A DNA stretch of 48,329 bases from Candidatus Omnitrophota bacterium (GTDB lineage: Bacteria > Omnitrophota > Gorgyraeia > Aquiviventales > Aquiviventaceae): positions 1 to 48,329 of the forward strand of contig JACQRB010000056.1 of assembly GCA_016206685.1 (NCBI GenBank). Reading direction: 5' to 3'. The notes under the pieces are model-generated. The model was not told the DNA's origin, ran no database searches, and worked only from the letters and a program-made list of their open reading frames with translations. How positions within the stretch are numbered: the first letter of the stretch is position 1; each line of letters begins with the position of its first letter. Shown in pieces: positions 5,603 to 30,064 of this stretch. The position numbers and the translations under genes are program-made.

Positions 5603-6356
5603 GATTCGGCATCTGGCCAAACGTTTCGGCGGGGTGACGGCCCTGCACGACGTGAGCCTGGCCGTCTTCCCGCATGAGATTGTCGGCCTCATCGGGCCCA
5701 ACGGGGCCGGCAAAACCACGCTCTTTAACTGCGCCACCGGCGTCTTGCCGCCGGAGGCCGGCGAGATCTGGTTTGGCCGCGGGACCAAGGAATCGCTCAT
5801 CGGGCGCGCCCCCCACCAGGTCATCCAGTACGGCCTGGCCAGGACCTTCCAGAACATCCGGTTGTTCGCGACGATGACGGTCGTGGAGCACGTGCTGGTG
5901 GGCGGCTACGTGCGTACGCACACCGGACTCGTGGGCGCGATCCTCAACAGCCCTGAGGCGCGCCGCGAGGAGCGCTGGGCCTTCGATCGCGCGATGGGGC
6001 TGCTGGAGCTGGTGGGACTGGCTCCGCAGGCCGACCAGGCGGCTGCGGAGTTGCCGTTCGGCTTGCAGCGGCGCCTGGAGCTGGCCCGCGCGCTGGTGTC
6101 GGAGCCGGAGCTGCTCCTCCTCGATGAGCCGGCGGCGGGCTTGAACCCGACGGAAAAGCAGGAGCTGTTGGCGCTGCTGCAGCGGCTGCGCGCGCAGGGC
6201 CTGACGCTGCTGCTCATTGACCATGACATGCAGTTCGTCATGCCGGTGTCCGATCGGGTGATCGTGCTCGACGACGGCCGGAAGATCACCGAGGGGCGTC
6301 CCGCCGACGTGCAAAACGATCCGCGGGTCATTGAAGCCTACCTCGGAACATCGTGA
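5583..6356 (+). CDS. livG: Branched-chain amino acid ABC transporter ATP-binding protein LivG
   Basis: Walker A GPNGAGKTT, Walker B LLLLDEPAAGLNP, EIRHLAKRFGGVTALHDVS. Confidence 0.95.
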   Translation: MAAPLLEIRHLAKRFGGVTALHDVSLAVFPHEIVGLIGPNGAGKTTLFNCATGVLPPEAGEIWFGRGTKESLIGRAPHQVIQYGLARTFQNIRLFATMTVVEHVLVGGYVRTHTGLVGAILNSPEARREERWAFDRAMGLLELVGLAPQADQAAAELPFGLQRRLELARALVSEPELLLLDEPAAGLNPTEKQELLALLQRLRAQGLTLLLIDHDMQFVMPVSDRVIVLDDGRKITEGRPADVQNDPRVIEAYLGTS

Positions 6357-7060
6357 TGTTGCGGCTGGACAATGTGACGGCGGGCTACGGGACGACGGCA
6401 TGCCTGAAAGGCGTCACCCTGTTCGTGCAGGCCGGGGAAATCGTCACGCTCCTGGGCGCCAACGGGGCCGGGAAGAGCACGACGCTGCTGGCCATTTCCG
6501 GCCTGGTGCGGCTCAGCCGGGGCGCGATCGCGCTCAACGGCGCGCGCATTGACGGGCTACCGCCCGAGGCGATCGCGGGCCGCGGCGTCGGGCATGTGCC
6601 TGAAGGCCGGCGCGTCTTTCCTCGCCTGACGGTGCTGGAGAATCTCCAGTTGGGCGCGTACCTGCGCGGGGATCAGGCCGGGGTGGCGCACGATCTGGCG
6701 TGGGTCTTTGAGCTGTTTCCCCTGCTGCGCGACCGCCGGCGCCAGCTCGCGGGCACGCTCTCCGGAGGCGAGCAGCAGATGCTGGCGATGGGCCGGGGCC
6801 TGATGGGGCGGCCCGCGTTGCTGTTGCTGGATGAGCCGTCGCTGGGCCTGGCGCCGAAACTGGTGCAGGTGGTCTTTGACGTCATTCGGCGGATTCACCA
6901 GGCCGGCACGACGGTGCTGTTGGTGGAGCAAAACGCCCGCCTGGCCTTGGCCATTGCGCACCGGGGCTATATCCTCGAGGCCGGCGCCATCGCCCTGGCG
7001 GATACCGCCCCGGCCCTGGCCGACAACCCCAGAGTCAAAGCCGCCTACCTGGGCGGTTGA
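6353..7060 (+). CDS. livF: Branched-chain amino acid ABC transporter ATP-binding protein LivF
   Basis: GANGAGKSTTL, LSGGEQQMLAMGRGLM, LLLLDEPSLGLAPK; 4-nt overlap with livG. Confidence 0.95.
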   Translation: MMLRLDNVTAGYGTTACLKGVTLFVQAGEIVTLLGANGAGKSTTLLAISGLVRLSRGAIALNGARIDGLPPEAIAGRGVGHVPEGRRVFPRLTVLENLQLGAYLRGDQAGVAHDLAWVFELFPLLRDRRRQLAGTLSGGEQQMLAMGRGLMGRPALLLLDEPSLGLAPKLVQVVFDVIRRIHQAGTTVLLVEQNARLALAIAHRGYILEAGAIALADTAPALADNPRVKAAYLGG

Positions 7061-14328: not shown

Positions 14329-15219
14329 ATGAATCTAATGAGTGAAGATCAGACACGAGCTTACCTTGAAGAACTCCGCTGGCCGAACGGCGCACAATGC
14401 CCGTTTTGCACGCTTCACCAGGTTACAAAGCTCAACGGCAAACGGCCTGGCTTTTATCAATGCAATCGCTGCCGCAAGCAGTTTACTGTGCGAACAGGCT
14501 CGATCTTTGAGCGGTCGCACGTCCCGCTCTCCAAGTGGCTCCAGGCCGTCCACCTGCTATGCGCCAGTAAGAAGGGCATGAGCGCCTTGCAGGTGTCGCG
14601 GATGCTTGAGGTCAGCTACAAGACAGCCTGGTTTCTGTGCCACCGGATTCGAGAGGCGATGCGCTCACCTGGGGGCTTGCTGACGGGTACAGTCGAGGTT
14701 GATGAAACCTACGTTGGTGGGAAGGAAAAGAACGCGCAGCGAGGACGCAGCACCCGCAAGAAAACGCCGCTCGTCGCCGTCATTCAGCGCAACGGCAAGG
14801 TACGGACTCAGGTCGTGCGTTCGGTGTCTGCCGCCAACCTGATGCGTGTCCTCAAAGAGAATGTTGACGTGGAATCAACCCTGATGACAGATGATTTCAT
14901 GTCGTACCGCCACGTCGATGAAGTGTTCTATCAACATGAAGCGGTGGTTCACAGCAAGAAGGAATACGCGCGGGGCAATGTCCATGTGAACAACTGCGAG
15001 TCCTTCTTTGCCTTGCTCAAGCGTGGCCTCATGGGGAGCTTCCACCATGTCTCGCGTAAGCACCTGGGGCGTTACTCCAATGAGTTTGCGTTTCGGTGGG
15101 ATACACGCAAGATCACAGACGCCGAACGGGTAGAGGCGGCTTTACGGCTTGCAGAGGGGAAGAGACTGATGTATTGTGATCTCACCAATGGGGAAACGGC
15201 CAAAGCGCAAGCCAACTAA
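14329..15219 (+). mobile_element. IS1595-family (ISXO2-like) transposase CDS
   Basis: Zinc ribbon CPFC...CNRCRKQFTVRTGSIFERSHVPLSKW, DETYVGGKEK, HVNNCESFFALLKRGLMGSFHHVSRKHLGRYSNEFAFRWD. Confidence 0.93.
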
Positions 15220-15433: not shown

Positions 15434-15694
15434 ATGAAGACGACGACCATCTTGCTCACCGCCGGCGACATCATCGAGCGCTACCGCCTGTCCTACCAGA
15501 CCCTCAACTACTACACCAACCTGGGGCTCTTGCGGGTGGCCAAACGCGACGGGCATCAGCGGCTCTACGACGGGCGCGATGTCCAACGCAACCTCCAGGC
15601 GGTTGCCCGGCTCAAGGACGAAGGCTATCCCTTGCGGCTGATCTCGCGGATGCTGACCCAAGGGCTCTCCGCGTTGAAGGTGAGCGTGGGATGA
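15434..15694 (+). CDS. MerR-like HTH regulator, HTH only
   Basis: LTAGDIIERYRLSYQTLNYYTNLGLLRVAKRDGHQRLYDGRDVQRNLQAVARLKDEGYPLRLISRML. Confidence 0.85.
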   Translation: MKTTTILLTAGDIIERYRLSYQTLNYYTNLGLLRVAKRDGHQRLYDGRDVQRNLQAVARLKDEGYPLRLISRMLTQGLSALKVSVG

Positions 15695-16563
15695 GCTACT
15701 ACCGGTTGCTCGGACTGGACCGCGAGCCCTTTTCGACCAATCCGGACCCGGCGTTTTTCTACCAGTCGCCGCAATACCGCGACACGCTGGCCAACCTCAT
15801 CATCGAGTTCCGGCTCAAGCGGGGCTTGAGCGTGGTCCTGGGCGACATCGGCGTCGGCAAGACCACGCTCGGGCGCAAGCTCATCCAGATGCTGCGGGAG
15901 CGCTCCAACTTTCTCTTCCACATGATCCTGGATCCCACCTATCCGTCTGAGGAGCTCTTCTTCCATGACCTCACCCGCACGCTGGGGATCGAGCTGCCCT
16001 GGCAGACCCCGACGCTGGTTGACTACCGGGATGCGCTGGAGCGGTTCCTGTTCCGCAAGGCCCTGCAGGAGGAGCAGACGATCGTGCTCATCATTGACGA
16101 AGCCCACAAGCTCAACGAGCTTTCCCTGGAAGTGTTGCGCCTCCTCCTGAACTATGAGACCAACGACGCCAAGCTCCTGCAGCTGGTGCTCTTGGGGCAA
16201 ATGGAGCTGCTGCCCCTCCTCATGGGCCTGCCCAACGTCGTCGATCGCATCAGCTTGAAGGGCACCTTGACACCGCTCACCTTGCTTGAAACCCACGAGT
16301 TGATCGCCTTCCGCCTGGAGGAGGCGGGCTACCGCTCGCACATCCCTCTGTTCAGCCCGGAGGCGGTTGAGACCATCTGCGCGTATACGGAAGGCTATCC
16401 CCGCCGGATCGCGATGGTGTGCCACCAGGCGTTGCGCCAGCTGGTCATGCGCCGGGAGCGATCGGTTAATGAGGGCTTGGTGGAGGAGCTGATTCAACAC
16501 GAGATGGAGTCGGGATGGGATCCGCCAAGAAGGGCAAGGAAACTCCAGCCGAGCAGTTGCTGA
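15691..16563 (+). CDS. ExeA/GspA-like AAA ATPase (general secretion / XrtA-associated ATPase type)
   Basis: YYRLLGLDREPFSTNPDPAFFYQSPQYRDTLANLIIEFRLKRGLSVVLGDIGVGKTTLGRKL; IVLIIDEAHKLNELSLEVLRLLLNYET. Confidence 0.92.
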   Translation: MSYYRLLGLDREPFSTNPDPAFFYQSPQYRDTLANLIIEFRLKRGLSVVLGDIGVGKTTLGRKLIQMLRERSNFLFHMILDPTYPSEELFFHDLTRTLGIELPWQTPTLVDYRDALERFLFRKALQEEQTIVLIIDEAHKLNELSLEVLRLLLNYETNDAKLLQLVLLGQMELLPLLMGLPNVVDRISLKGTLTPLTLLETHELIAFRLEEAGYRSHIPLFSPEAVETICAYTEGYPRRIAMVCHQALRQLVMRRERSVNEGLVEELIQHEMESGWDPPRRARKLQPSSC

Positions 16564-17192
16564 GGATGATCGAAGGTCCGGCCGGCGCCGCCAACGTACC
16601 ACACGCGTCGGCCTCGCCATCGCTCAGGCAGCTGTGGGCCGGCTTGCAGGAGCTGCCGGGACGCCTCTTGTCTCGGCTGCGACCCGCCCGACGGGAGACC
16701 GACGCGTTCCTGTGGAACCTGACGATGGCGCAGCGGCTCCTCTGGGGCGTGCTGCTGGCGTTGGGGGCGTATGTCGCGTTCGATTTGGTCGTCGTGCAGC
16801 CCAGGCCGAAGCTTGGGCGCAGGGTCGCGACCGCCACTGTGGAGCCGGCGACGGAGTCCCCGGGAGCCTCCGGCAGTCCCGCGAGTGCGCTCAAGCCGCT
16901 TGCCGAGTATCTGGCCGTCGTGCAACAGGCCAGTCCGTTCGGCGGGGCCGCCTCGATCATCGCCGCCCCCGCCGCGCAAAGCACGAAACAGCGGCTTGCG
17001 GAGCTGGCACAGGGGCTGGTGGTGGTCGGGATCGACCGCAGCGCCAATCCAGAGGCGATCATCGAAGATACGACGCAAAAGCGCACGTATTTCATTAAGG
17101 TGGGTGATGAGCTCAACGGGATGGCCGTTAAGGACATCAGTGTCAAGGGGGTCATCGTCAGCTATGAAGGGGAAGAGCTCCTCGTCAAGTAA
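16515..17192 (+). CDS. GspC/PilP-like inner-membrane periplasmic protein
   Basis: Single TM; C-terminal GLVVVGIDRSANPEAIIEDTTQKRTYFIKVGDELNGMAVKDISVKGVIVSYEGEELLVK, HR-domain-like; upstream of secretin. Confidence 0.75.
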   Translation: MGSAKKGKETPAEQLLRMIEGPAGAANVPHASASPSLRQLWAGLQELPGRLLSRLRPARRETDAFLWNLTMAQRLLWGVLLALGAYVAFDLVVVQPRPKLGRRVATATVEPATESPGASGSPASALKPLAEYLAVVQQASPFGGAASIIAAPAAQSTKQRLAELAQGLVVVGIDRSANPEAIIEDTTQKRTYFIKVGDELNGMAVKDISVKGVIVSYEGEELLVK

Positions 17193-17229
17193 GTGGGGCC
17201 TGTCGTGTCGCGCACCCGCTGGGCAGCGG

Positions 17230-19023
17230 GTGACGCGGAGCGGGGGCCCCCGCCGACCGCAGCCGACGACGCGCGCCGGCTGCGTCGGGGCGCGGACGGC
17301 GGGGTCGCGCAGCGGCAGGACCCGCTGCCTCCTGATGGCCGTCTGGCTCGTCGGCGGCGGTGTCTGGTTGAGCCTGCCGGCGGCGGCCCGCTCGGAGGAT
17401 GCGCTCGAGGATGCCCTCCTGGAGACGGCCTCGGCCGAGCCCCCTACCACGTACCTGCGGGGCATGGAGGAGCGGGTGTCGCTGGATCTGCGCTCGACCG
17501 AGGCGACCGATGCGCTGAAATACCTGGCGACCAAAGGCGGCTTGAACATCGCGATCAGCAAGAACGTCGCGGGCCGCGTGAACCTGTTCCTGACGGATGT
17601 GCCGATCCGCGACGTCTTCGACTTGGTCCTGCGCAGCAACGAGCTCGCCTACGACAAGCAGGGCAACATCTACAACATCATGACCGAGGCCGAGTATCGC
17701 GCGCTCTACGGCAAGCGCTTCGCGGACCTGCGGCGCGTGGAGACCTTCCGCCTGAAGTACGCCATCCCAGAGCAGGCGTTCAACCTCTTGGATGCGCTCA
17801 AGAGCGAGATCGGCCGCTTGCTGGTTGACGAGGACTCCGGGACCGTCTCCGTCATGGATACGCCGGAGCGGTTGCGCCAGATGGAAGAGGCCCTCGGGAC
17901 CCTGGAGCAGGGCAACACCGTGCGCGTGTTCGATCTGCGCTACGCCAAGGCCAAGGACGTGGAGGAGCAATTGAAGGACCAGCTCGAATCCAAGAAGCTG
18001 GGCTTCATCAAGGCCGACGAGCGCAGCAACCAGGTGATCGTGCAGACCCTGCCCAACCGGATGAAGGACATCGAGCAGCTGGTCAAGGCCCTGGACCGCA
18101 AGACCCGCGAGGTGCTCATTGATGGCCGGATCGTGAAGGTCAGCCTGGTCAACGGCGCCGATACCGGCATCGACTGGGACAAGATATTCACGAACCTGAA
18201 ATTCCACGGGATTGACACGACGAACAGCTTCCGCACCACGACGACGGGCACGGCGCCGTCCGAGGTCCCCGGCGTCACCAAGATCCGGATTCCGGACATC
18301 AACCTGCCGGGAGTGAAAACCAAGTCCGGCACGGACCACGAACTGAAGTTGGGCCAGTTGGCGTTCGGGACCGTCGCGCGCGACGGCTATGAGCTGTTTC
18401 GCTACCTCCAGACTCTCGGCAAAACGAAGATCATGTCCAATCCGCGCATCCTGGTCACGGAGAACCAGGAAGCCCGCATCCATGTGGGCACGCGCGAGGC
18501 CTACGTGACGACGACCACGACGACCGGCCAGACCACGACGACCACCGCCGAAGAGGTCCAGTTCATCGACGTGGGAATCCAGCTCGTGGTGACCCCGAAG
18601 ATCAACGAGGATGGGTTCGTCACCATGAAGATCAAGCCGGAGATCTCCAGCGTGATCCGCACGCTCACCACGCCCAGCGGCAACGCGATTCCCATCGTGG
18701 ATACCTCCACCGCGGAGACGAACGTCATGGTGCAAGACGGGGCGACGGTGATCATCGGGGGCTTGCGCAAGGATGAGAAGAAAGTCACCGATAAGCAACT
18801 CCCGTATCTGGGTCGTATTCCGCTGATCGGGCCGGCCTTGTTCCGGGACCGCGACCAGGATGACGAGACCTCGGAGCTGGTGGTCTTCATCACCCCCCAT
18901 ATCGTCGCCGGCGATACCCTGGTGACGGGGGATGAGGAGGCGTTGGGTGGAGGCATCAAGCCGTACCGGGAGTATCAACCCCTGCTGGAAAAGCGCGCGC
19001 GCGTGGAGCCGCTGAAACCGTAG
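17230..19023 (+). CDS. Type II/IV secretin (GspD/PilQ superfamily); start at GTG 17230 or ATG 17335
   Basis: Signal peptide LLMAVWLVGGGVWLSLPAAARS; N-domains VSLDLRSTEATDALKYLATKGGLNIAISKNVAGRVNLFLTDVPIRDVFDLVL; VQFIDVGIQLVVTPKINEDGFVTMKIKPEIS; TVIIGGLRKDE...PYLGRIPLIGPALFRDRDQDDETSELVVFITPHIV. Confidence 0.93.
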   Translation: MTRSGGPRRPQPTTRAGCVGARTAGSRSGRTRCLLMAVWLVGGGVWLSLPAAARSEDALEDALLETASAEPPTTYLRGMEERVSLDLRSTEATDALKYLATKGGLNIAISKNVAGRVNLFLTDVPIRDVFDLVLRSNELAYDKQGNIYNIMTEAEYRALYGKRFADLRRVETFRLKYAIPEQAFNLLDALKSEIGRLLVDEDSGTVSVMDTPERLRQMEEALGTLEQGNTVRVFDLRYAKAKDVEEQLKDQLESKKLGFIKADERSNQVIVQTLPNRMKDIEQLVKALDRKTREVLIDGRIVKVSLVNGADTGIDWDKIFTNLKFHGIDTTNSFRTTTTGTAPSEVPGVTKIRIPDINLPGVKTKSGTDHELKLGQLAFGTVARDGYELFRYLQTLGKTKIMSNPRILVTENQEARIHVGTREAYVTTTTTTGQTTTTTAEEVQFIDVGIQLVVTPKINEDGFVTMKIKPEISSVIRTLTTPSGNAIPIVDTSTAETNVMVQDGATVIIGGLRKDEKKVTDKQLPYLGRIPLIGPALFRDRDQDDETSELVVFITPHIVAGDTLVTGDEEALGGGIKPYREYQPLLEKRARVEPLKP

Positions 19024-19025
19024 CC

Positions 19026-20108
19026 ATGCCTGAGCCAGCCCTCGTGCCAGGATCCCAGAAACCCGGCGGGCCGCTGGGAAGTGGGACCATGTGGCTCGTG
19101 GCCCTGCTGGTCATCGCCAGCGGGGGGGCGACCTACTTTGGCTGGCGCGCCCAACAACTGACCACCACCTTGCACCAGTTGACCCATCAGCGGGAGGGGG
19201 TTGAAGAGGCCCAGACGACGCTGCAAACTCGCTGGCAGACGATCCAGACGCAGTACGACGAGCTCACCAAGACCCACCAGGCGCTGAGCCAGGATCGTGA
19301 CAACCTCATCGCCCAAGTGGCGGGCACGAAGGAAACCTTGGAGCGCCAACGCGAGGAAACCGCTCGGCACGAGTCGGCGGCCCGGCAGACCGCGGCTGAG
19401 CGGGATCTGTTGGCGTCCCTGCTCAAGAAGGCCGCCCAGGAGCACCAGGCGTTGAGCGGCCAGGTGGGGCCGCTCCAGGAACAGCTCCAAGAGCTCGAGC
19501 GCGTCTACGACCAAGCTCTTCAGGAGCGGGATGCCCTCAAAGGCGACCTGGCCAAGGCGCTCCAGAAAACCCATGAGAAGCAGCTCAAACAAGACCTGGC
19601 CTCGCAGCGCAAGGAGCGCCAGGAGCTGGAGCGGCAGTTGCGCTCGGCCCAGCGAGAGATGGGAGAAATCCAGGGGCGCGAAACGCGCGTGAAGAAACAA
19701 TTGAAGTCGCTCCAAGAGGATTACGCGAAGGTGGCCGCCGACCGCAATCGGCTCAGGCGGCAGAACACCATGATTCCCAGCGACGTCAACCAACTGGCGC
19801 GGGAGCACCAGCGTCTGTTGAAGGAGACGGCCGACATGCACTACAACCTGGGGGTGCTCTTCAGCGAGCAAAAGCAGTATGCCCAGGCGGCGGCGGAGTT
19901 TGGCAAAGTCATCGAGCTGCGTCCCGATGACGCGGATACCTACTACAACCTCGGGGTGATCTATGCCGAGCATCTCCCGGACCGGGAGCGGGCGATCGCG
20001 CATTTCCGCCGGTATCTCAAGATCAATCCGCGGGCCCGAGATGCCAGTTGGGTCAAGCAGTACATCGCGTCCTGGCAAGCCTATGAGGCGAAAGAACGCC
20101 TGGAGTAG
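19026..20108 (+). CDS. Membrane-anchored coiled-coil protein with C-terminal TPRs
   Basis: N-terminal TM MWLVALLVIASGGATYFGW, long heptad region, MHYNLGVLFSEQKQYAQAAAEFGKVIELRPDDADTYYNLGVIYAEHLPDRERAIAHFRRYLKINP. Confidence 0.8.
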   Translation: MPEPALVPGSQKPGGPLGSGTMWLVALLVIASGGATYFGWRAQQLTTTLHQLTHQREGVEEAQTTLQTRWQTIQTQYDELTKTHQALSQDRDNLIAQVAGTKETLERQREETARHESAARQTAAERDLLASLLKKAAQEHQALSGQVGPLQEQLQELERVYDQALQERDALKGDLAKALQKTHEKQLKQDLASQRKERQELERQLRSAQREMGEIQGRETRVKKQLKSLQEDYAKVAADRNRLRRQNTMIPSDVNQLAREHQRLLKETADMHYNLGVLFSEQKQYAQAAAEFGKVIELRPDDADTYYNLGVIYAEHLPDRERAIAHFRRYLKINPRARDASWVKQYIASWQAYEAKERLE

Positions 20109-20112
20109 CGAC

Positions 20113-23100
20113 ATGAACAGCGGCACCTCCTCAGCATCTTGCGGGTTCAGAAACGGCGTGTGGGTCCGGGGATGGGTGGGCCTGATGCTGGTGCTTGGCC
20201 TGTCCGGGAGGCTCTTCGCCGATTCCCAGGACGCCCAAGGCACGTTCGAGAGCGCCTACAAACAAGGCCAGGCGCTCTACGAGCAGGGCAAGTACCAGGA
20301 AGCCACCGCCGCGTTCCAACGGGCGCTGCAGCTTATGGATCGCGATTCCTCTCATGGCGCTGCGGGGGGAGCGGCTCCTCCCCCCACGGCTGAGGAGTCC
20401 TCGGACTATCAGCAAGCCCTCAAGGAAGCTGTCGCCGTGCCAGTCCCGTCGGATGCCGTTGGGCATTCCCAGCTGACCTTCCTGGCGACCCAGATTGAAC
20501 AGTTCAAGACGGCCCTCGAGGTGAAAGAGGACGAGCTGCGACGATTCGCCCAGACGCTCGCCGAACGCGACCAGCAGGTGCAGCAAGCCGGCCGCGAGCG
20601 GGACCGGCAGGCCGCGAGGGTTTCTGAGCTGACAGGCAAGGTCCAAGCGATTCAAAGCGATAACCAGAATCTGCTGAAAGAGCGGGAGAGCCTCAAGCAG
20701 ACCAGCCATGAGCTTGAAGAGCGCGTGTCGGGCCTGCAAGAGGACCTGGCCGGGCTCAAGGGCCAATGGAGCACGGAGCTGGAGCAGACCAAACGCACGC
20801 TCGCGCAACGCGAAGCTGAGCTGGCGCTGGCCAGACAGGCGGACGTCAAACTCCAAGCGCAAACCGACCAACTCCGGACCCGCGACCTCCAACTGGCGCA
20901 ACTGCAGGAGCAGCTGCGCACCCTTCAGGACACGTACGCCGCGACCACGCGCGAGGCCGACGCGCTTCGGACGAACCTCTCGCCCATCACGGGCGAGTTC
21001 GAGCGGATGAAGCAAGCCTACGCGTCCGACCGGGAGGCGTTGAAACAGCTCACCAACGACCACGATCAACTGCAGGCCGAGCGCAACCAGTTGAAGGACA
21101 GTCTGCGCGTCGCGCAGCAGGCGAATGCGCAGCTCACCGATGACCTGGTGGGGGCGCGCTCCACGGCGAGCCAGCTTGAGGGGCAACTCGCGAAGCTGAA
21201 AAACGAGCTGGCGGGCCGTCAGCAAGACATGATGCGCACCCAGGACACGATGACGAAATCGGAAGGGCGCTTCACGCAGGCGACCCAAGAGCTTAAAACG
21301 CTCCGGGAGTCCAATGCGTCATTGCAGGCGCAACTCCGCCAGACCACGGATGAAGTCCTCGAGAGCCGGACGAAGCTGAAGGTCCAAGAAGAGCAGACCC
21401 AGCAGGCCCGCCAGGCCTTGACCCAAGCGCAGGAACGTCTCTCGAAGGTGAGTGTCGAGCGCGAGCAATCGCAGCAACAACTCAGCGCCCTGCAACAGGA
21501 GCAGGCCCAGACGCGGAATCAACTGGCTGGCCTGGCCCAGGAGACGGCGGCGGCGAAGGAGCGGGAGCGCAAGGCCACCGACCAACTGCAGTACGTGCGG
21601 GATCTGAACGCGCAACTGGCGAAGACCGGCGAACAGCAGGCGGCCAAATCCATGGAATCGGCCGCTCGTCTGCAGGCGGCGGATAGAGACCACCAGGCGC
21701 TGGCGAAGGAACTGGACCAGGCCAAACGCGCCAACCAACAGCTCGAAAAGCATCTGAAAACCGCCCAGGACGAGGCCACGCAGACCCGGGAGGGCTTTCG
21801 CAAGGAGCTGGACCAGGCCAGACAACTGCTCGGCAGCCGCGAAGAAGAGCTCGCCTCGGCGAAAGAGCAGGCCGCCCAGGCGCAGACGGCCGTGACTACC
21901 CTTGACCGGCAGCGGGCGGTCCTCGAGGGGCGCCTGACGTCGAAAGAGGAGGAGGCGCGGCGACTGACCCAGACCCTGGCCCAACACGATCAACAGCTCC
22001 AGCAGGTCTCACAGGAGCGGGATCAGCGGGACGTCAAGCTCGCTGAACTGGGTGCGCAGCTCCAAGCCGGCCGCAAGGATCAACAGACGACACTCGCCCA
22101 AGCGGAGGGCGCCAAGCGCGCCAACCGGGAGCTGGAGGAGCGTCTGCGGCTTGCGCAAAACGAGTTCACGCAGGCTCAAAGCCGGTGGAGTCGGGAGCTT
22201 GAGCAGGTGAATCGCACGCTCGCCAAGCGCGAGGCGGACCTGGCGACGGCCACGAAACAGCTCGAACAGGCGCAGGCCGACACCAGCACCCTGAAACAAC
22301 AGCAAGCCGTCCTCGAGCACCGCCTGCAGGAGCGCTCGACGGAGACACAGGAGCTGGAGCGCAAGATGGCCGCGCTGACCCAGCAGCTGCAACAAACCCA
22401 AAGCGACCTCACCGCCAATCAGCAGCAGGTGGCGGCGTTGCAGGAACGAGTCAATGAGCGCACGCAGCAACTCACAGGCCAGGGGGAAGAGCTCGCCCAG
22501 TCGCAGGCGCAGCTGCGCGACCTGGAACGCGCCTACGCGACCTCCAAGACCGAAGGGGAGCAGATGCGCACCACGCTGGCTTCGAAAGAAGAAGAGCTGC
22601 GGCGGCTCAGTCTCACCATGACGCAGGACCAGCAAGCGCTTCGGCAGGCGACCCAAGAAGCTACCGAGGCGCAGTTCCAGCGCAAGCATCTGGAAGAGCA
22701 GGTTCGGATCGCCAAAGAAACCCAGGGGGGATCGGAAGAGGAGTTGAAGTCCACGCGCCAGCAAGCCGCACGCCTGCAGGATCAACTGGTGGCCGCGCAG
22801 TCCGACCGGGACCGGTTCCGCAGCGGGATCGATCAGCGGGAGACGCAGCTGGGGCAACTGCAGGCCGAGTTGAGCGGCGTCCGACGGGAACTGGCCGGCG
22901 CGCAAGCCGAATCCAAGCAGGTCGAGCTCGGTGCCCAGGAGCGGGAGCAGCAGCTCGTCGTGGATCGCGAAGGCTACAAGTGGCAGGTTGATCGCCTGCA
23001 GCGCGAGCTGGAGCGCTCGCAGGCCGCTTACCGGCAACTGACCCAGGAGCGGGAGCAGCAGCTCAATGCCATCGCCCAGCGCACGGTCGGCAAGGAAGAT

Positions 23101-23652
23101 TACGACCGGGCTCAAGAAGCCTTAGCCGACGGCCGGACTCAGCTGGCCCGGCTCAACGCGGAGTTGACGGAGCGGGACCGCGTCATTGCGCAGCTTCGCA
23201 GCGATCTGGCCCAGCGGGAACGCGATGCCAAAGCCAGCCAACAAGCCCTGGGCAAGGCCCAGGAGCTGCTTCAGCTCTCGCCGTCGCTGCCGACGTCCGC
23301 CTCCGCATGGCCGAGGATGGGAGCGGGGCCTGGAGCCGGGACGGCGACGCCCGGCGCGGGATCCGCACAAGCGGTGGATGCGGCTGCTGAGGGAACCCAG
23401 GTGAGAGTCTATCGAGCGAACGAGGAGCACGGGTTCGTGGTCATCTCGGTCGAGGGGATGGCCAATCCTCAACCCGGCGATACCGTGCTGTTGTACGTCG
23501 GCAACCGGCCGGCCGCGGAAGTGCAGTTGGGGGACATTGACGACGACCGCATGGCGGTGGCGTATATCAAACGTAAGCTGGATCCCCACGCGACGATTCG
23601 CAAGGGCGACTTGGTCCTGGCGCGGCATTTTACCAAGCCCCAGGAAGAGTAA
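20113..23652 (+). CDS. Secreted ~1179-aa coiled-coil protein with N-terminal TPR and small C-terminal domain
   Basis: Signal peptide WVGLMLVLGLSGRLFA; TPR QGQALYEQGKYQEATAAFQRALQL; about 1000 aa Q/E/K/R heptads; C-terminal GTQVRVYRANEEHGFVVISVEGMANPQPGDTVLLYVGNRPAAEVQLGDIDDDRMAVAYI. Start 20113 in frame with ORF 19963..23652. Confidence 0.8.
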   Translation: MNSGTSSASCGFRNGVWVRGWVGLMLVLGLSGRLFADSQDAQGTFESAYKQGQALYEQGKYQEATAAFQRALQLMDRDSSHGAAGGAAPPPTAEESSDYQQALKEAVAVPVPSDAVGHSQLTFLATQIEQFKTALEVKEDELRRFAQTLAERDQQVQQAGRERDRQAARVSELTGKVQAIQSDNQNLLKERESLKQTSHELEERVSGLQEDLAGLKGQWSTELEQTKRTLAQREAELALARQADVKLQAQTDQLRTRDLQLAQLQEQLRTLQDTYAATTREADALRTNLSPITGEFERMKQAYASDREALKQLTNDHDQLQAERNQLKDSLRVAQQANAQLTDDLVGARSTASQLEGQLAKLKNELAGRQQDMMRTQDTMTKSEGRFTQATQELKTLRESNASLQAQLRQTTDEVLESRTKLKVQEEQTQQARQALTQAQERLSKVSVEREQSQQQLSALQQEQAQTRNQLAGLAQETAAAKERERKATDQLQYVRDLNAQLAKTGEQQAAKSMESAARLQAADRDHQALAKELDQAKRANQQLEKHLKTAQDEATQTREGFRKELDQARQLLGSREEELASAKEQAAQAQTAVTTLDRQRAVLEGRLTSKEEEARRLTQTLAQHDQQLQQVSQERDQRDVKLAELGAQLQAGRKDQQTTLAQAEGAKRANRELEERLRLAQNEFTQAQSRWSRELEQVNRTLAKREADLATATKQLEQAQADTSTLKQQQAVLEHRLQERSTETQELERKMAALTQQLQQTQSDLTANQQQVAALQERVNERTQQLTGQGEELAQSQAQLRDLERAYATSKTEGEQMRTTLASKEEELRRLSLTMTQDQQALRQATQEATEAQFQRKHLEEQVRIAKETQGGSEEELKSTRQQAARLQDQLVAAQSDRDRFRSGIDQRETQLGQLQAELSGVRRELAGAQAESKQVELGAQEREQQLVVDREGYKWQVDRLQRELERSQAAYRQLTQEREQQLNAIAQRTVGKEDYDRAQEALADGRTQLARLNAELTERDRVIAQLRSDLAQRERDAKASQQALGKAQELLQLSPSLPTSASAWPRMGAGPGAGTATPGAGSAQAVDAAAEGTQVRVYRANEEHGFVVISVEGMANPQPGDTVLLYVGNRPAAEVQLGDIDDDRMAVAYIKRKLDPHATIRKGDLVLARHFTKPQEE

Positions 23653-23660
23653 CTGAAAAA

Positions 23661-25976
23661 CTAGCGGGTCTTCAACAACGCGGTGAAGTCAACGTCGCGT
23701 TGGTCGTGGTCAATGAGCTCCACCTGCCGGCTCAAGGGACTGAAATGGAGGATCTGGCTGGTCGGCAGGTTGCCGGAGCGGATGCTGGGCCGGAGGATGT
23801 ACGTGCCTGGCGGGAGGTCACTGGCCCGATAGAGGCCTTTGGCGTCCGTCGTCACGTAGCGCGATCGTTCACCCGCTCGTGCGAGCTCGATCGTCGCCCC
23901 TGCAAGCCGCCCCCCGGTGTCCGTGAGGATCTGGCCCGCGATGGTCAGGCTCGTTTCGCGCACGCGCACCCGAATCGTCTCGGCATCCTCCAGCGACCCG
24001 TCAGTGGCGACCACGGTGACGGCGTACGAGCCGGCCTGATCTGCTCGCGGGGTCCAGCTCAACACCCCGGTTCCGGCGCCGCGGGCTGTGAACGTCGCGC
24101 CATCCGGCAGGGGTGAGGCGGCGATCCCCACCGTTTCGTGATCGGGATCGCGGGCGCGCACCTCGAACGTCAGGAGCTTGCGCTCGTCCACCGAGCGGTC
24201 CCCGATCCGATCGAGGAGGGGCCTGCGGTTGGTATTGACGACCTTGATCGTCGTGCGCTGCCCGGCGCACTGTTGCTCCGGGTCACAGACTTCGAAGCGC
24301 ACATCCTGATGGAGCGTGGCGGGGGAATCCTGGGAGGTCAGGTCAAAGTCCGGGGTGCCGCCGGCTGAACAGGCGGCGGCATCGAAGCGCATCCAGGGCG
24401 GGAGCAGGAAGGCTTGACACGTCAGCGGATCCCCATCCGGATCCGTGACGATGGGGGTGATCGTCAGGGTCTTGCCCTCAGGGACGACGTGGGTGCCGAG
24501 TGGATTCATGACCGGAGGCCGGTTGACATTGATGACGCTGATCGCGATTTCCTCCCGGTCGCACAGGGGCTGGGTGTCGCAGACGTCGAAGCGGACGCCT
24601 TCATAGACCGTGGTAGACCGTTTCTGAGAGGCTTCGGTAAAATCCGGCGTGCCGTAGACTTGTCTCGTGGTCGGATCAAAGTGAGCCCAGGGGGGCAGGT
24701 TCGTCGCCTGGAAGGCGAGGGGATCTTTGGGGCCGTCCCGGTCTACCGCGCTGACCGTGAAGGCGAGGGTCACGCCCTCCGGGACGGTTTTGGACCCGAT
24801 CGGAATCAGCTCCGGGGCATGGTTGGCATTGAGGACTTTGACCTCGACCCGCTCGGCCGTGGTGGTGTTGTGGGCGCGATCGATCGCCAGGGCTTCAATG
24901 GCATGAGTCCCATTCGACACCGTCGTGGTGTCCCAACTGACCACATAGGGGTCGCTGACGGCCACGCCAACCGCCAGCCCATCCACCAGGAACTTCACCG
25001 TTTCGATCCCGATGGCATCGCCGGCCTCGGCCTGGAGTGTGACGGTGCCGGCCACGGGCGTTCCGGGCAGGGGAGCGATGAGATGCGCTCGCGGCGGGGT
25101 GTTATCCACGGTGACGGTCACGGGCGGCGTCGTGCCAAGATTGAGATCCGGATCGGAGGCGCTGGCGATGAGCGCGTGCGGGCCATCGGCGTCCCGGCGC
25201 GTGTCCCAACTGACTTCATACGGAGCCGTCTCATCAGTGCCGATGAGGGTCCCGTCTTTGGTGACCCTCACCTGGGTCACGCCTTCATGATCCGTTGCGC
25301 TGACGCGGATGGTGACCGTGCCCCTGAGCGTTTCTCCCTGCCTGGGCGCGTCGAGGACGACGCGGGGGGGTTGGGTATCGAAGCCGGAGCGGGACGCGCC
25401 TGTCAGGTTCTCACCCCGGAAGACCACCATCTCGCCAAGCTGGATCCCGGTAATCTTGACGGTGGAACCGGGCGCAAAACCCGGCGTCTGTCCCGCCGGC
25501 GCGAGGCGCCAGATGCGCCCCCGGCGATCGCGCAGCTGATAGGGAAAACGCTTGGGGGCGTCCGGCGCACTCGCGCGCAGAGGCTCAATGACGCCCTCCA
25601 GGCTGACCGAACGCTCCAGGACTGGTTGGACGTCGGGGGGCATCGTGTCGTAGGCGCCTTCCGGGAGGGCGGCTCGCAGCACGATGGCCGGGTCCATCGC
25701 GATGGTCGCCTTGAGGATGGCCTGGCGTCGGCTCACGAGCTGTCGCAGGCTCTTGGCGAGCGTCGCTCGCTCGGCGCCGCTGGCGTTGGCATACCGGTCG
25801 CGGGCGATCAGGACTTCCTTGGTGAGCTGGTCGAGCGAGATTGACTGGCCGGATCCGATGACGACTTTGACGTCTTTCGCCAGGCTCGCCGTTGAGGGAA
25901 GGCTGCACGCGGTTGCCAGGCACGCGGCCACAGCCCATCGCCGCGGGATGGCCGGACTTCCTCTGTGTGTTCGCAT
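23661..25976 (-). CDS. Large secreted protein with Ig-like and cadherin-like repeats and C-terminal carboxypeptidase-regulatory-like domain
   Basis: Two PPRVVLDAPRQGETLRGTVTIRVSATD / PPRAHLIAPLPGTPVAGTVTLQAEAGD modules; three NRPPVMNPLGTHVVPEGKTLTITPIVTDPDGDPL-like modules; LTIAGQILTDTGGRLAGATIELARAGERSRYVTTDAKGLYRASDLPPGTYILRPS. Confidence 0.85.
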   Translation of the reverse strand: MRTHRGSPAIPRRWAVAACLATACSLPSTASLAKDVKVVIGSGQSISLDQLTKEVLIARDRYANASGAERATLAKSLRQLVSRRQAILKATIAMDPAIVLRAALPEGAYDTMPPDVQPVLERSVSLEGVIEPLRASAPDAPKRFPYQLRDRRGRIWRLAPAGQTPGFAPGSTVKITGIQLGEMVVFRGENLTGASRSGFDTQPPRVVLDAPRQGETLRGTVTIRVSATDHEGVTQVRVTKDGTLIGTDETAPYEVSWDTRRDADGPHALIASASDPDLNLGTTPPVTVTVDNTPPRAHLIAPLPGTPVAGTVTLQAEAGDAIGIETVKFLVDGLAVGVAVSDPYVVSWDTTTVSNGTHAIEALAIDRAHNTTTAERVEVKVLNANHAPELIPIGSKTVPEGVTLAFTVSAVDRDGPKDPLAFQATNLPPWAHFDPTTRQVYGTPDFTEASQKRSTTVYEGVRFDVCDTQPLCDREEIAISVINVNRPPVMNPLGTHVVPEGKTLTITPIVTDPDGDPLTCQAFLLPPWMRFDAAACSAGGTPDFDLTSQDSPATLHQDVRFEVCDPEQQCAGQRTTIKVVNTNRRPLLDRIGDRSVDERKLLTFEVRARDPDHETVGIAASPLPDGATFTARGAGTGVLSWTPRADQAGSYAVTVVATDGSLEDAETIRVRVRETSLTIAGQILTDTGGRLAGATIELARAGERSRYVTTDAKGLYRASDLPPGTYILRPSIRSGNLPTSQILHFSPLSRQVELIDHDQRDVDFTALLKTR

Positions 25977-26034: not shown

Positions 26035-26412
26035 ATGCAGCGACCAAGAACGTTGTGGATGAGCGTGGGGTACGCGGTTCGGGGTCTGTCGTATGCGGTG
26101 ACGACCCAGCGCAACGTCCGTCTTCATCTGGGCGCCGGGCTGTCGGCCCTGGCCCTGGCGAGCTGGCTGGAGGTGAGCGTGGCCGAGTGGCTGGTCGTGT
26201 GTCTGACGGCGACGCTCGTCCTGGTGGCCGAGCTCCTCAACACCGCGGTGGAGGCCTTCGTGGACATGGTCTCTCCAGAGCATCGCGAGGAGGCGAGGAT
26301 CATCAAGGACGTGGCGGCCGGCGCGGTGCTCGCCTGTTGCGCGAGTGCGGTGGTGGTGGCGGGCGCGCTCCTGCTCCCGCGACTTCTGCATCGGCTCTTG
26401 CTGTCTTCGTGA
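26035..26412 (+). CDS. dgkA: Diacylglycerol kinase (prokaryotic DgkA family)
   Basis: GLSYAVTTQRNVRLHL, AELLNTAVEAFVDMVSPEHREEARIIKDVAAGAVL. Confidence 0.92.
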   Translation: MQRPRTLWMSVGYAVRGLSYAVTTQRNVRLHLGAGLSALALASWLEVSVAEWLVVCLTATLVLVAELLNTAVEAFVDMVSPEHREEARIIKDVAAGAVLACCASAVVVAGALLLPRLLHRLLLSS

Positions 26413-27644
26413 TGCCAAAAACATTACGGCGTGCGGCGTTCGCCCACGGCTTCCTCGCCATCTGCGTCGTCGGGATGTCTGCGGGGCGCGCCGCTGAGCC
26501 TCCGCCAGCCTCCGCCGTAGACCCTCAGCGATACCGCCAGCTCGGCGAACAGCTGGCTGGGGAAGGTCGCTATCAAGAAGCCGCCGAAGTCTTCAGGCAG
26601 GCGGCGATCCTCTCTCAACAAGAGAGGGTTGAGAGCGAAGACGCCACACGCCTGAGCCAATGGCACGCCAAACAGGCCCAGGCGGCCCTGGCCGCCCGTC
26701 AGCCGCTCCAAGCCCTGGCCCACGCCGAACGCGCCACCGAGTTCGATCCCCGCAACCGCCTCGCCACGTCGCTCCTCGCCAAGGCCAGGCGCCTGGCTGA
26801 AGAGAACCGGCAACGCCTCGCCAAGAAAACCCAGCTCATGGCGCAGGCCGCGGCGAGCGAGCGCGACGGGGATCTCCGGCGCGCCTTGACGCGCTTGAAG
26901 AGCGCCCAGACGGCGGATCCTGACGACGCCCAGGTCCGGCAGGCGATCGCGAAGCTCCACACGCGCCTGACGAGTCGCAAGCCCCGCATTCAGCGCGCGG
27001 CGGAGTTCACGCTCCTTCCGCGCAGGCCCTTGGTGGAGGAGTATAGCGTGAGCCCCGGCGATGTCTTGGAAGTGTTTGTCTGGCAGCAACCCGATCTCAC
27101 CCGCGATGTCATCGTCAGGCCCGATGGGCGGCTGTCGTTCCCGCTCGTCGGCGATGTGGATGCCGCGGGGCTGAATCTGACCCAGCTCGATCAGATCATC
27201 ACCCAACGCCTGAAAGCCTACGTGCGGTTTCCGGATGTCTCCCTGGCGATCAAGCGCTTCGGGGGAACCAAGACGATCGTCCTCGGGGAAGTGGCGAGCC
27301 CCGGGGTCTATGTGCCGGCCGGTGAGGGACGGGTGCTCGAGGTGGTCGCGATGGCGGGGGGGTTTACGAAGGACGCCAAAAAAGAGAACGTCATGCTGAT
27401 CCGCGGAGGCCTGGCGGAACCGCAGGTGGCGAAGCTGAATCTGGCGAAGGCGCTGGATCGCGGCGCGCTCGAAGAGAACGTGGCCTTGCAGCCCGATGAC
27501 ATCCTCTTCGTCCCCAAAGGGGGGATCGTCAGCACGCTGGACTTCATGGAAGAGTTCTACCCGACGCTGTCGGAGCTCTTGGTGGGCCAGAGCATCGCGA
27601 CGAACTTCGGGACGCGAGAAACCAGCGGCGGGATTACGCGCTAA
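26412..27644 (+). CDS. Polysaccharide export outer-membrane protein (Wza-like, Poly_export + SLBB) with N-terminal TPR-like region
   Basis: YSVSPGDVLEVFVWQQPDLTRDVIVRPDGRLSFPLVGDVDAAGLNLTQLDQIITQRL...KTIVLGEVASPGVYVP. Confidence 0.92.
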   Translation: MPKTLRRAAFAHGFLAICVVGMSAGRAAEPPPASAVDPQRYRQLGEQLAGEGRYQEAAEVFRQAAILSQQERVESEDATRLSQWHAKQAQAALAARQPLQALAHAERATEFDPRNRLATSLLAKARRLAEENRQRLAKKTQLMAQAAASERDGDLRRALTRLKSAQTADPDDAQVRQAIAKLHTRLTSRKPRIQRAAEFTLLPRRPLVEEYSVSPGDVLEVFVWQQPDLTRDVIVRPDGRLSFPLVGDVDAAGLNLTQLDQIITQRLKAYVRFPDVSLAIKRFGGTKTIVLGEVASPGVYVPAGEGRVLEVVAMAGGFTKDAKKENVMLIRGGLAEPQVAKLNLAKALDRGALEENVALQPDDILFVPKGGIVSTLDFMEEFYPTLSELLVGQSIATNFGTRETSGGITR

Positions 27645-28102: not shown

Positions 28103-30064
28103 ATGGCCCAATACGAACTGAGTCTCACTGACTATTGGCGCATCTTGCGCAAGCGCTACCAGATTGTCGCGGGATCGGTCTTCCTCCTCCTCCTCATGAC
28201 GGTCATCTACCTCCAGCGGCAGGAGCCGGTCTATCAGACGTCGGCCAAGATCAAGCTGGAAAAATCCCAGATGGTCAGCGGAAATTTCTTTCAGGGCTTT
28301 CAGTCCTACTATGAAAATCCGATGGCGACGGAATCCCGCGTGGTGGAAAGTCGCTTGGTGACCGAGGGCATGGTGCGCCGGCTCTACCCGGACGTGGCGT
28401 CACAGGACCCCCTCAAATTTCAGCACCTGGTGGATCAGCTGCACGGCGGCGCGAAGGCGCAACCGATCGAAGAAACGAACATCATCGAGATCGTGGTGAC
28501 AGGGTCTGATCCCAAACGTGCGGCCGACATCGCGAACTTCACGGCGGAAGCCTACATTGAGACCAACCTGCAAGAGCGCAACAAGCAAGCCCGGAAAGTG
28601 CGCGAGTTTGTCGAAGTCCAACTCACCCAAACCGAGATCAAGCTCAGAACGGCCGAAGAAGCCGTCAGGCGGATGCGCGAGCAGGGCACGGCCACCGGGG
28701 TGGGAGCCGTGCTCCAGAGTCGCCTCACCGACCTCCAGGCCCAACTGACGAATCTGACCCCCCGGCTGACCGAGGCCCATCCGGACATCATCCGTCTGAA
28801 GGCGCAGATCGCGCAGATCGGGTCGCAGCTCCGCGCCCTTCCCGGGGCGGAGCTGGAGTTTGCGCGGTTGACCCGCGAACTCGAAATTAATCAAAAGATG
28901 TACGGCACGCTTCGGGAGCGGCTGGAAGAAGCGCGGATCGCCGAAGCGGAGAAGGTTCCCGATGCCTCGATCATCGAGCGGGCCATGCCGCCTCAAGCCC
29001 CCATCAGCCCACGCAAGCCACTCAGCCTGGCGATCGGGCTGTTGCTGGGTCTGCTCCTGGGATGCGTGCTGGCGTTTGTGACGGAGACGATGGACACCTC
29101 CATTGGGACCATCGAGGACGTGGAAACGCTCCTGAATCTGCCCGTGCTGGCGGTCATTCCGCACGTCCCCAAAGAGGAGAAGCGCGAGAGGCGGACCATC
29201 ATCCAGCTCAAACGCCAGTTGCGGTTGTTGCGCGCCAAGCCCAGGCTCCTCTTCAAGCCGCGCAAGGGGGTCGGACGCGATGATCGTCTGGCGCTCCATG
29301 TCCACTACGCGCCGAATTCCATCACCTCCGAGGCCTATCGGATTTTGCGGACCAACCTGAAGCTCTCGGCTGAGCGCAAGGTGATCCTGGTGACCAGTTC
29401 AGGACCGGGGGAAGGCAAAACCACCGTCCTGAGCAACCTGGGGATCGTGATCGCCCAGGGAGGCGCCAAGACCATGCTGCTCGCCAGCGACCTCCGACGG
29501 CCGGAACTCGATCGGGCGTTCGGGCTCTCGCGGGAAGAGCACGGGCTGTCCGATCTGCTCCAGGGCGCGGTTCCGCTGGAGCGGACGATCCGGGGCCTGT
29601 CGGATTTCATTCTTGGGAAATTCGGCTATGAGGAAGCCGTCAAGAACCCGTATCTGTCGAACTTGTTTATTCTCAGCACGGGCCGACTCCCCGAGAATCC
29701 CGTCGAGCTGATCGGGTCCAAGGGGATGCAGGACTTGTTGCACACCCTCCGGTCGCAATTCGACGTCATCCTGGTGGATGCCCCGCCGCTCCTGCCCGTC
29801 GCCGACAGCCTCTTGCTCGCCCCCTATGTGGATGGCGTCGTGCTCGTCTATGAGGTGGGCCGCATCTCCCGCGCGATGCTGCTGCGGGCCAAGACCCAAC
29901 TGGAAAGCGTCGGGGCGAAGGTGTTCGGGGTCGTGTTGAATCACGTGCGTCCGGAGGTCCAAACCCAGCCGCGCGACTATTACTACTATCGGCAGCGCTA
30001 TGCCTACGGCGAGAAACCGAAGGACGCTCACCCTGTTTCCTCGCCCACCCCTCCAACCAGTTGA
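28103..30064 (+). CDS. Wzz / BY-kinase fusion (chain-length determinant + capsular tyrosine kinase)
   Basis: Wzz N-terminus DYWRILRKRYQIVAGSVFLLLLM; ILVTSSGPGEGKTTVLSNLGIVIAQGGAKTMLLASDLRRPEL; DVILVDAPPLLPVAD; Tyr-rich tail DYYYYRQRYAYG. Confidence 0.93.
   Translation: MAQYELSLTDYWRILRKRYQIVAGSVFLLLLMTVIYLQRQEPVYQTSAKIKLEKSQMVSGNFFQGFQSYYENPMATESRVVESRLVTEGMVRRLYPDVASQDPLKFQHLVDQLHGGAKAQPIEETNIIEIVVTGSDPKRAADIANFTAEAYIETNLQERNKQARKVREFVEVQLTQTEIKLRTAEEAVRRMREQGTATGVGAVLQSRLTDLQAQLTNLTPRLTEAHPDIIRLKAQIAQIGSQLRALPGAELEFARLTRELEINQKMYGTLRERLEEARIAEAEKVPDASIIERAMPPQAPISPRKPLSLAIGLLLGLLLGCVLAFVTETMDTSIGTIEDVETLLNLPVLAVIPHVPKEEKRERRTIIQLKRQLRLLRAKPRLLFKPRKGVGRDDRLALHVHYAPNSITSEAYRILRTNLKLSAERKVILVTSSGPGEGKTTVLSNLGIVIAQGGAKTMLLASDLRRPELDRAFGLSREEHGLSDLLQGAVPLERTIRGLSDFILGKFGYEEAVKNPYLSNLFILSTGRLPENPVELIGSKGMQDLLHTLRSQFDVILVDAPPLLPVADSLLLAPYVDGVVLVYEVGRISRAMLLRAKTQLESVGAKVFGVVLNHVRPEVQTQPRDYYYYRQRYAYGEKPKDAHPVSSPTPPTS

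Follow-up and report, generated by a model that had tools for sequence, protein, structure and literature searches.

A secretin module in an Omnitrophota genome as the probable outer-membrane half of a split type II secretion-type machine

Investigation of a contig of 48,329 nucleotides (JACQRB010000056.1; the window, contig C47 of genome G000) from the metagenome-assembled genome (MAG) of a Candidatus Omnitrophota bacterium (GCA_016206685.1; 0.97 Mb, 63% complete) revealed a module of six co-directional genes from 15434 to 23652, which encode a MerR-like protein, an ExeA/GspA-like ATPase, a GspC-like protein, a secretin and two coiled-coil proteins. This module is probably the outer-membrane and assembly half of a split machine of the type II secretion system (T2SS) or type IV pilus (T4P) kind, the inner-membrane half of which would be encoded on contigs C18 and C26 of the same genome.

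Inner-membrane genes on other contigs of the genome

Regarding the inner-membrane half, contig C26 encodes a core with the order GspE (cut)-F-G-I-J-K-L-M, which contains neither GspC nor a secretin. GspG is recognized by TIGR01710 (147 bits against an equivalog cut-off of 89) and PF08334 (E 4e-31), GspE and GspF match PF00437 and PF00482 above cut-off (with 345 bits for the NCBIfam GspF model, under its equivalog cut-off of 424), GspK matches PF21687 (E 4e-21), the GspL-like protein is a fusion of PilM_2 and PilN, and GspM matches NF040576 with an E value of 3e-11, under the cut-off. By these profile matches, the GspG, GspE/GspF and GspK/GspL/GspM components expected of a T2SS are present on C26. 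Contig C18 carries the end of a giant-protein gene, a gene for a small secreted membrane protein, F-type ATPase genes in the order epsilon-c-b/delta-alpha-gamma-beta and the start of an E-like gene, and it stops where the GspE of the C26 core begins; the same ATPase-core arrangement is present, where contigs allow, in the family members with a matching core. The small secreted protein, encoded between the giant gene and the ATPase genes in several genomes (6151-6948 of locus L116, with orthologues such as 5901-6815 of L163), has a C-terminal transmembrane (TM) helix and gave no Pfam match.

The original prediction had described a system without GspE or GspF and had named, as the finding that would speak against it, a T2SS or T4P gene set elsewhere in the genome without its own secretin or GspC. 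For the window the description is accurate, as a profile search of the genome's contigs gave no T2SSE or T2SSF match on this contig, but for the system as a whole it does not hold, and the genome-wide search for GspE/F/G and PilB/C/M/N/O homologues found such sets on C26, namely the T2SS core and a T4P-like cluster (PilB-PilC-pilins-PilM/N-O-P) that likewise has no secretin. Because a T2SS core without GspC or secretin sits in the same genome, the idea of a stand-alone envelope or exopolysaccharide (EPS) system is not supported, while the reading of the genes as a coherent and conserved secretin-centred module stands.

In total, six secretins are encoded in the genome, those of C7, C56, C65 and C21 together with GspE-type genes and those of the window and C41 without an adjacent E or F. 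The ordinary pilMNOPQ system of C7 and the MshA-like system of C56 were rejected as partners of the module, since each has its own secretin, and the C65 secretin, which is close to two GspE-type genes, was provisionally taken as Tad.

The genes of the module and its neighbours in the window are:

15434-15694, + strand: MerR-like helix-turn-helix protein of 86 aa, first gene of the module (PF13411, E 7e-11)
15691-16563, + strand: ExeA/GspA-like AAA ATPase of 290 aa, AAA domain only (PF13401, E 1e-18; Walker A GDIGVGKT)
16515-17192, + strand: GspC-like inner-membrane protein with an N-terminal TxEEQLLxLIE motif, one TM helix and a C-terminal HR domain (profile A1 and fold match)
about 17335-19023, + strand: secretin with N0 and two KH-like N domains before the secretin domain (PF00263, E 2e-47; STN; two Secretin_N stretches)
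19026-20108, + strand: coiled-coil protein with an N-terminal anchor and C-terminal TPRs, PilW/Tgl-like TPR signal (PF13181, E 6e-11)
20113-23652, + strand: large secreted coiled-coil protein of 1179 aa with a conserved C-terminal domain of ~80 aa (coiled-coil matches, one weak N-terminal TPR)
23661-25976, - strand: convergent secreted multi-immunoglobulin (Ig) protein, candidate surface protein or cargo (Big_7, E 4e-33; He_PIG, E 1e-15)
26412-27644, + strand: Wza-like EPS export protein, a neighbour outside the conserved core (PF02563, E 2e-22)
28103-30064: Wzc-like EPS gene, neighbour of the module

The six genes of the module overlap or are spaced within about 140 bases, and they, the convergent Ig gene and the EPS genes all lie where the original prediction had placed them; its description of the 1179-aa protein as coiled-coil/TPR is borne out for the coiled coil, the TPR content being marginal. 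The start of the ExeA-like ATPase is best placed at 15691, and the protein scores 155 bits with TIGR03015 (XrtA-associated ATPase), under the cut-off of 324.5 that the ATPase of an XrtA/PEP-CTERM EPS system would be expected to pass. The GspC-like protein gave no match when searched as a single sequence against Pfam, but a seven-member profile (A1) matches GspC of PDB 3oss (E 2.9e-5), and the C-terminal domain of its AlphaFold model (pLDDT >90) has 3oss as the top Foldseek match (E 4e-3, TMt 0.71), followed by LspC, PilP and PulC. Profile and model together identify a GspC with an HR domain.

The secretin starts at the ATG at 17335 or at an in-frame GTG further upstream. Its profile matches both PilQ and GspD structures, with slightly higher scores for PilQ, and TIGR02517 gives 227 bits, below the cut-off of 351. 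With N0 and two KH-like domains it has one KH domain fewer than the classical GspD (N0-N1-N2-N3); the model is of low confidence (pLDDT 62) and aligns over the whole chain in Foldseek with large rmsd, so only the N-domain count was used from it. The anchored TPR protein matches TIGR02521 (PilW) with an E value of 5e-7 and a score far below the cut-off. Just upstream of the module, at 14329-15219 of the window, lies a gene for an IS1595-like transposase (judged by eye).

Conservation of the module and its pairing with the core

The original prediction had proposed to look for the gene order in related genomes, and at least 15 genomes of Omnitrophota share the order ExeA-GspC-secretin-coiled-coil/TPR, which is retained in nearly all loci read as far as the contigs extend; as it is kept in many relatives, the arrangement is not due to chance. 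Homologues of the secretin are 65-75% identical in ten other members of the family or order and about 50% identical elsewhere in the class and phylum, and orthologues of the ExeA-like ATPase within the family are 62-79% identical. Orthologues of the MerR-like protein precede ExeA in G018, G026, G027, L063 and the paralogous module of C41, and the gene of the anchored coiled-coil/TPR protein adjoins the secretin gene in the relatives read. The large coiled-coil protein has orthologues of 901-1837 aa within the family and order, in which the C-terminal domain is retained, and a long coiled-coil protein at the same position ends differently in G041 and L062. Coiled-coil proteins of ~2,450-2,570 aa, with a C-terminus resembling the TonB C-terminal domain by eye, were observed at 5133-12491 of L062 and 9246-16952 of L076. 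Genes of the relatives were called with a codon-usage script trained on the window, and small genes may therefore be missed, especially in AT-richer genomes.

Regarding the genes beyond the module, a homologue of the Ig protein follows the coiled-coil gene in G007, G011, G012, G018 and G026. EPS genes come after the Ig gene and adjoin the module in only three family members (the window, G011 and G018), a Wza homologue lies downstream at a distance in L066, and G018 has the module-EPS arrangement without the T2SS core, which would be consistent with a module that serves EPS export together with the neighbouring Wza and Wzc, a role that had been considered for the secretin. This reading is very improbable: G007, G012, G020, G026 and G027 have other genes at this position, mostly encoding giant surface proteins (giant beta-repeat proteins in G012, G020, G026 and G027), Wza is itself the outer-membrane channel of EPS export, and the GspG, GspK and GspF homologues are parts of protein export. 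As a general role EPS export was rejected, the number of relatives with EPS genes next to the module being small.

Co-occurrence was counted in 28 genomes of the family and order (both / first only / second only / neither). Module and T2SS core are distributed 11/1/1/15 (Fisher p 6e-6; module only in G018, core only in G022), and module and giant beta protein 7/5/0/16 (p 7e-4), the giant protein occurring within these 28 only in module-positive genomes; as the genomes are related, these Fisher values overstate independence. In G020 a single contig carries PilB-PilC-...-N-O-P, ExeA-GspC-secretin, the coiled coils, a ~5,990-aa protein, the ATPase and E-F-G...L-M, and in G027 the module, giant protein and ATPase share one contig. 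The GspE of the G020 core (L112, 14928-16631) was observed to have an MshE-type cyclic di-GMP-binding N-domain above cut-off. The same histidine kinase-response regulator pair precedes the module in G007 and L060/L061, is located within the T2SS core of G045 and adjoins PilB in G000.

A paralogous MerR-ExeA-GspC-secretin-coiled-coil module was observed on C41 of the source genome (L023, 799-14000), divergent from a DUF2341 surface protein gene. Sets of this C41 type are complete with their own core, ATPase and large proteins on a single contig in G019 and G021, and a third type in G010 has E, F, pseudopilins, ExeA, C and D on one contig. In the GspF and F1-beta trees each of the types W, M and X forms a clade of its own, as do W and M in the secretin tree; the correlation of GspD and GspF distances is weak (rho 0.39) and was not used. 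A motorless secretin module that stands alone as an envelope structure would agree with the absence of E and F from the window and with the module of G018, and is scarcely to be expected given the strong co-occurrence with the core and the own cores of the related modules in G019, G021 and G010; it was rejected on the co-occurrence and the G020 cluster.

Alternatively, the module may complete not the T2SS core but the T4P-like system of C26 (PilB-C-pilins-MN-O-P), its secretin taking the place of PilQ and the product being a pilus. This T4P-like cluster lacks a secretin, the PilN-O-P homologues of G020 end directly before ExeA, PilQ structures score slightly above GspD with the secretin profile, and the anchored TPR protein resembles PilW/Tgl. 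Strict P24 orthologues are distributed relative to the module as 6/6/3/13 (p 0.11), a weaker association than that of the T2SS core, and under a wider definition as 10/2/3/13 (p 0.002); further, the GspC-like protein has the layout of GspC, a TM helix and an HR domain. The adjacency of PilQ to PilMNOP and a PilB/PilC pair that a type IVa pilus would be expected to have was seen in G020 only, the clusters lying on different contigs in G000. A role solely in the pilus is a possible but rather unlikely outcome, and the two platforms, the P24 T4P-like one and the GspG core, may share one secretin.

Several points weigh against the module being the outer-membrane half of the GspG machine. The pairing in G000, a genome of limited completeness, is drawn from different contigs; G018 (86% complete) has the module without a matching core or second ATPase, and in G022 (73% complete) the core occurs but no module. 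In the complete genome G050, core and F1 ATPase lack an obvious dedicated secretin, and among its only four secretins three are beside their own pilus or secretion genes and one is without an assigned system. G006 and G025 have P24-type PilM and no module, which also speaks against the pilus alternative, and the secretin is one KH domain short of GspD. Incompleteness of the MAGs could account for G018 and G022, but not for G050. Gene identities, gene order, co-occurrence and the one-cluster arrangement in relatives are observed directly; from them we infer complex formation, the candidate cargo and the roles of ExeA, the coiled coils and the F1 ATPase.

The linked F-type ATPase

The ATPase genes on C18 (L163, 349-5873) constitute a second F-type ATPase operon, which is linked to the T2SS core and lacks subunit a. 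Linked operons of the same kind are present in G007, G009, G012, G020, G021, G023, G027, G045 and G050. Pfam confirms epsilon, b/delta, alpha, gamma and beta subunits in the linked operon, and the Walker motifs are intact in G000. With the atpD model, linked beta subunits score 505-572 bits and housekeeping ones 776-822, and the linked beta subunits form a separate clade; an extra set of F1 alpha, beta and gamma without subunit a, as in the mycoplasma type, is encoded. Identity with the housekeeping ATP synthase was rejected, as G009, G010, G012, G020, G021 and G050 have another, higher-scoring beta gene. A search for subunit a (PF00119) gave at most one match per genome; in the complete G050 this match is next to the housekeeping operon and some 546 kb away from the linked one. 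It is therefore unlikely that the linked enzyme carries out proton-coupled synthesis, unless subunit a is borrowed.

Proposed mechanism and relation to known systems

If the module and the GspG core form one machine, the secretin would be the outer-membrane channel and the GspC-like protein would bridge the inner-membrane platform of C26 and the N0 domain of the secretin. The ExeA-like ATPase would aid secretin assembly, with the conserved N-terminal motif of GspC as its probable docking site, the anchored TPR/coiled-coil protein would act as pilotin or scaffold for the secretin, and the large coiled-coil protein would span or prop the periplasm; scaffold roles for the coiled-coil proteins and the export of adhesins, as originally suggested, are plausible. 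GspE and GspF would drive a GspG-type pseudopilus, which may export or present large adhesin-like proteins, such as the giant beta-repeat protein and probably the neighbouring Ig protein. The second F1-type ATPase, encoded with the core, may hydrolyse ATP for the machine, adding force. A more speculative, rather improbable extension is a two-motor T2SS-derived machine, in which GspE is joined by a dedicated F1-type rotary ATPase that, lacking subunit a, could not couple to protons. ATP hydrolysis by this F1 enzyme would displace or release giant surface adhesins across the periplasm by way of the secretin and the long coiled-coil proteins, and the machine would give a Gram-negative cell a means of attachment or surface movement comparable in function to the gliding of mycoplasmas.

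Among known systems, the Exe T2SS of Aeromonas similarly has an AAA ATPase (GspA/ExeA) beside GspC and GspD, with E, F, G, I, J, K, L and M in the genome. Full-length ExeA has a TM helix and a peptidoglycan-binding domain, whereas the ExeA described here consists of the AAA domain alone; the GspC here has an extra N-terminal motif, the secretin has N0 and two KH domains, the genes are split over the genome, and there are, in addition, large coiled-coil proteins and an F1-type ATPase. The type IVa pilus (T4aP) PilMNOPQ system shares the PilM-PilN fusion of the L-like protein, the linked T4P-like B-C-A-M-N-O-P cluster and the PilW/Tgl-like TPR protein, but the major subunit of the core is GspG, GspK is present, the C-like protein is GspC-like and the ordinary pilMNOPQ is separate on C7. 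The F1-like ATPases of mycoplasmas (types 2/3) are likewise a second F1-type operon beside the housekeeping one and without subunit a, but the operon described here retains genes for b/delta and a c-like protein and has secretion genes as neighbours; the connection to mycoplasmas is taken from the literature (PMC3369863; PMC10066038) and not from a tree in this study.

Non-respiratory, 'symbiotic' type-2/3 F-type ATPases beside T4aP genes, and giant open reading frames, were reported in Omnitrophota by Seymour et al. (2023; PMC10066038), which limits the novelty of the present findings. As described in the main text of that study, those loci also combine a second F-type ATPase with GspE/F-type genes and giant surface proteins in the same phylum, and they very probably correspond to the core described here, although they are named T4aP there and the terms PilQ, T2SS and coiled-coil are absent from that main text. 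What appears to be new relative to it is the ExeA-GspC-secretin-coiled-coil module, the assignment of the core to GspG/K, the absence of subunit a from the linked ATPase and the co-occurrence.

The F-ATPase/pilus loci and giant proteins had been reported without a named outer-membrane exit, for which the module is a candidate. Members of the Omnitrophota are widespread and uncultured, and some are predatory or host-attached. With the core identified as GspG-type, the module supplies a concrete set of testable interaction partners.

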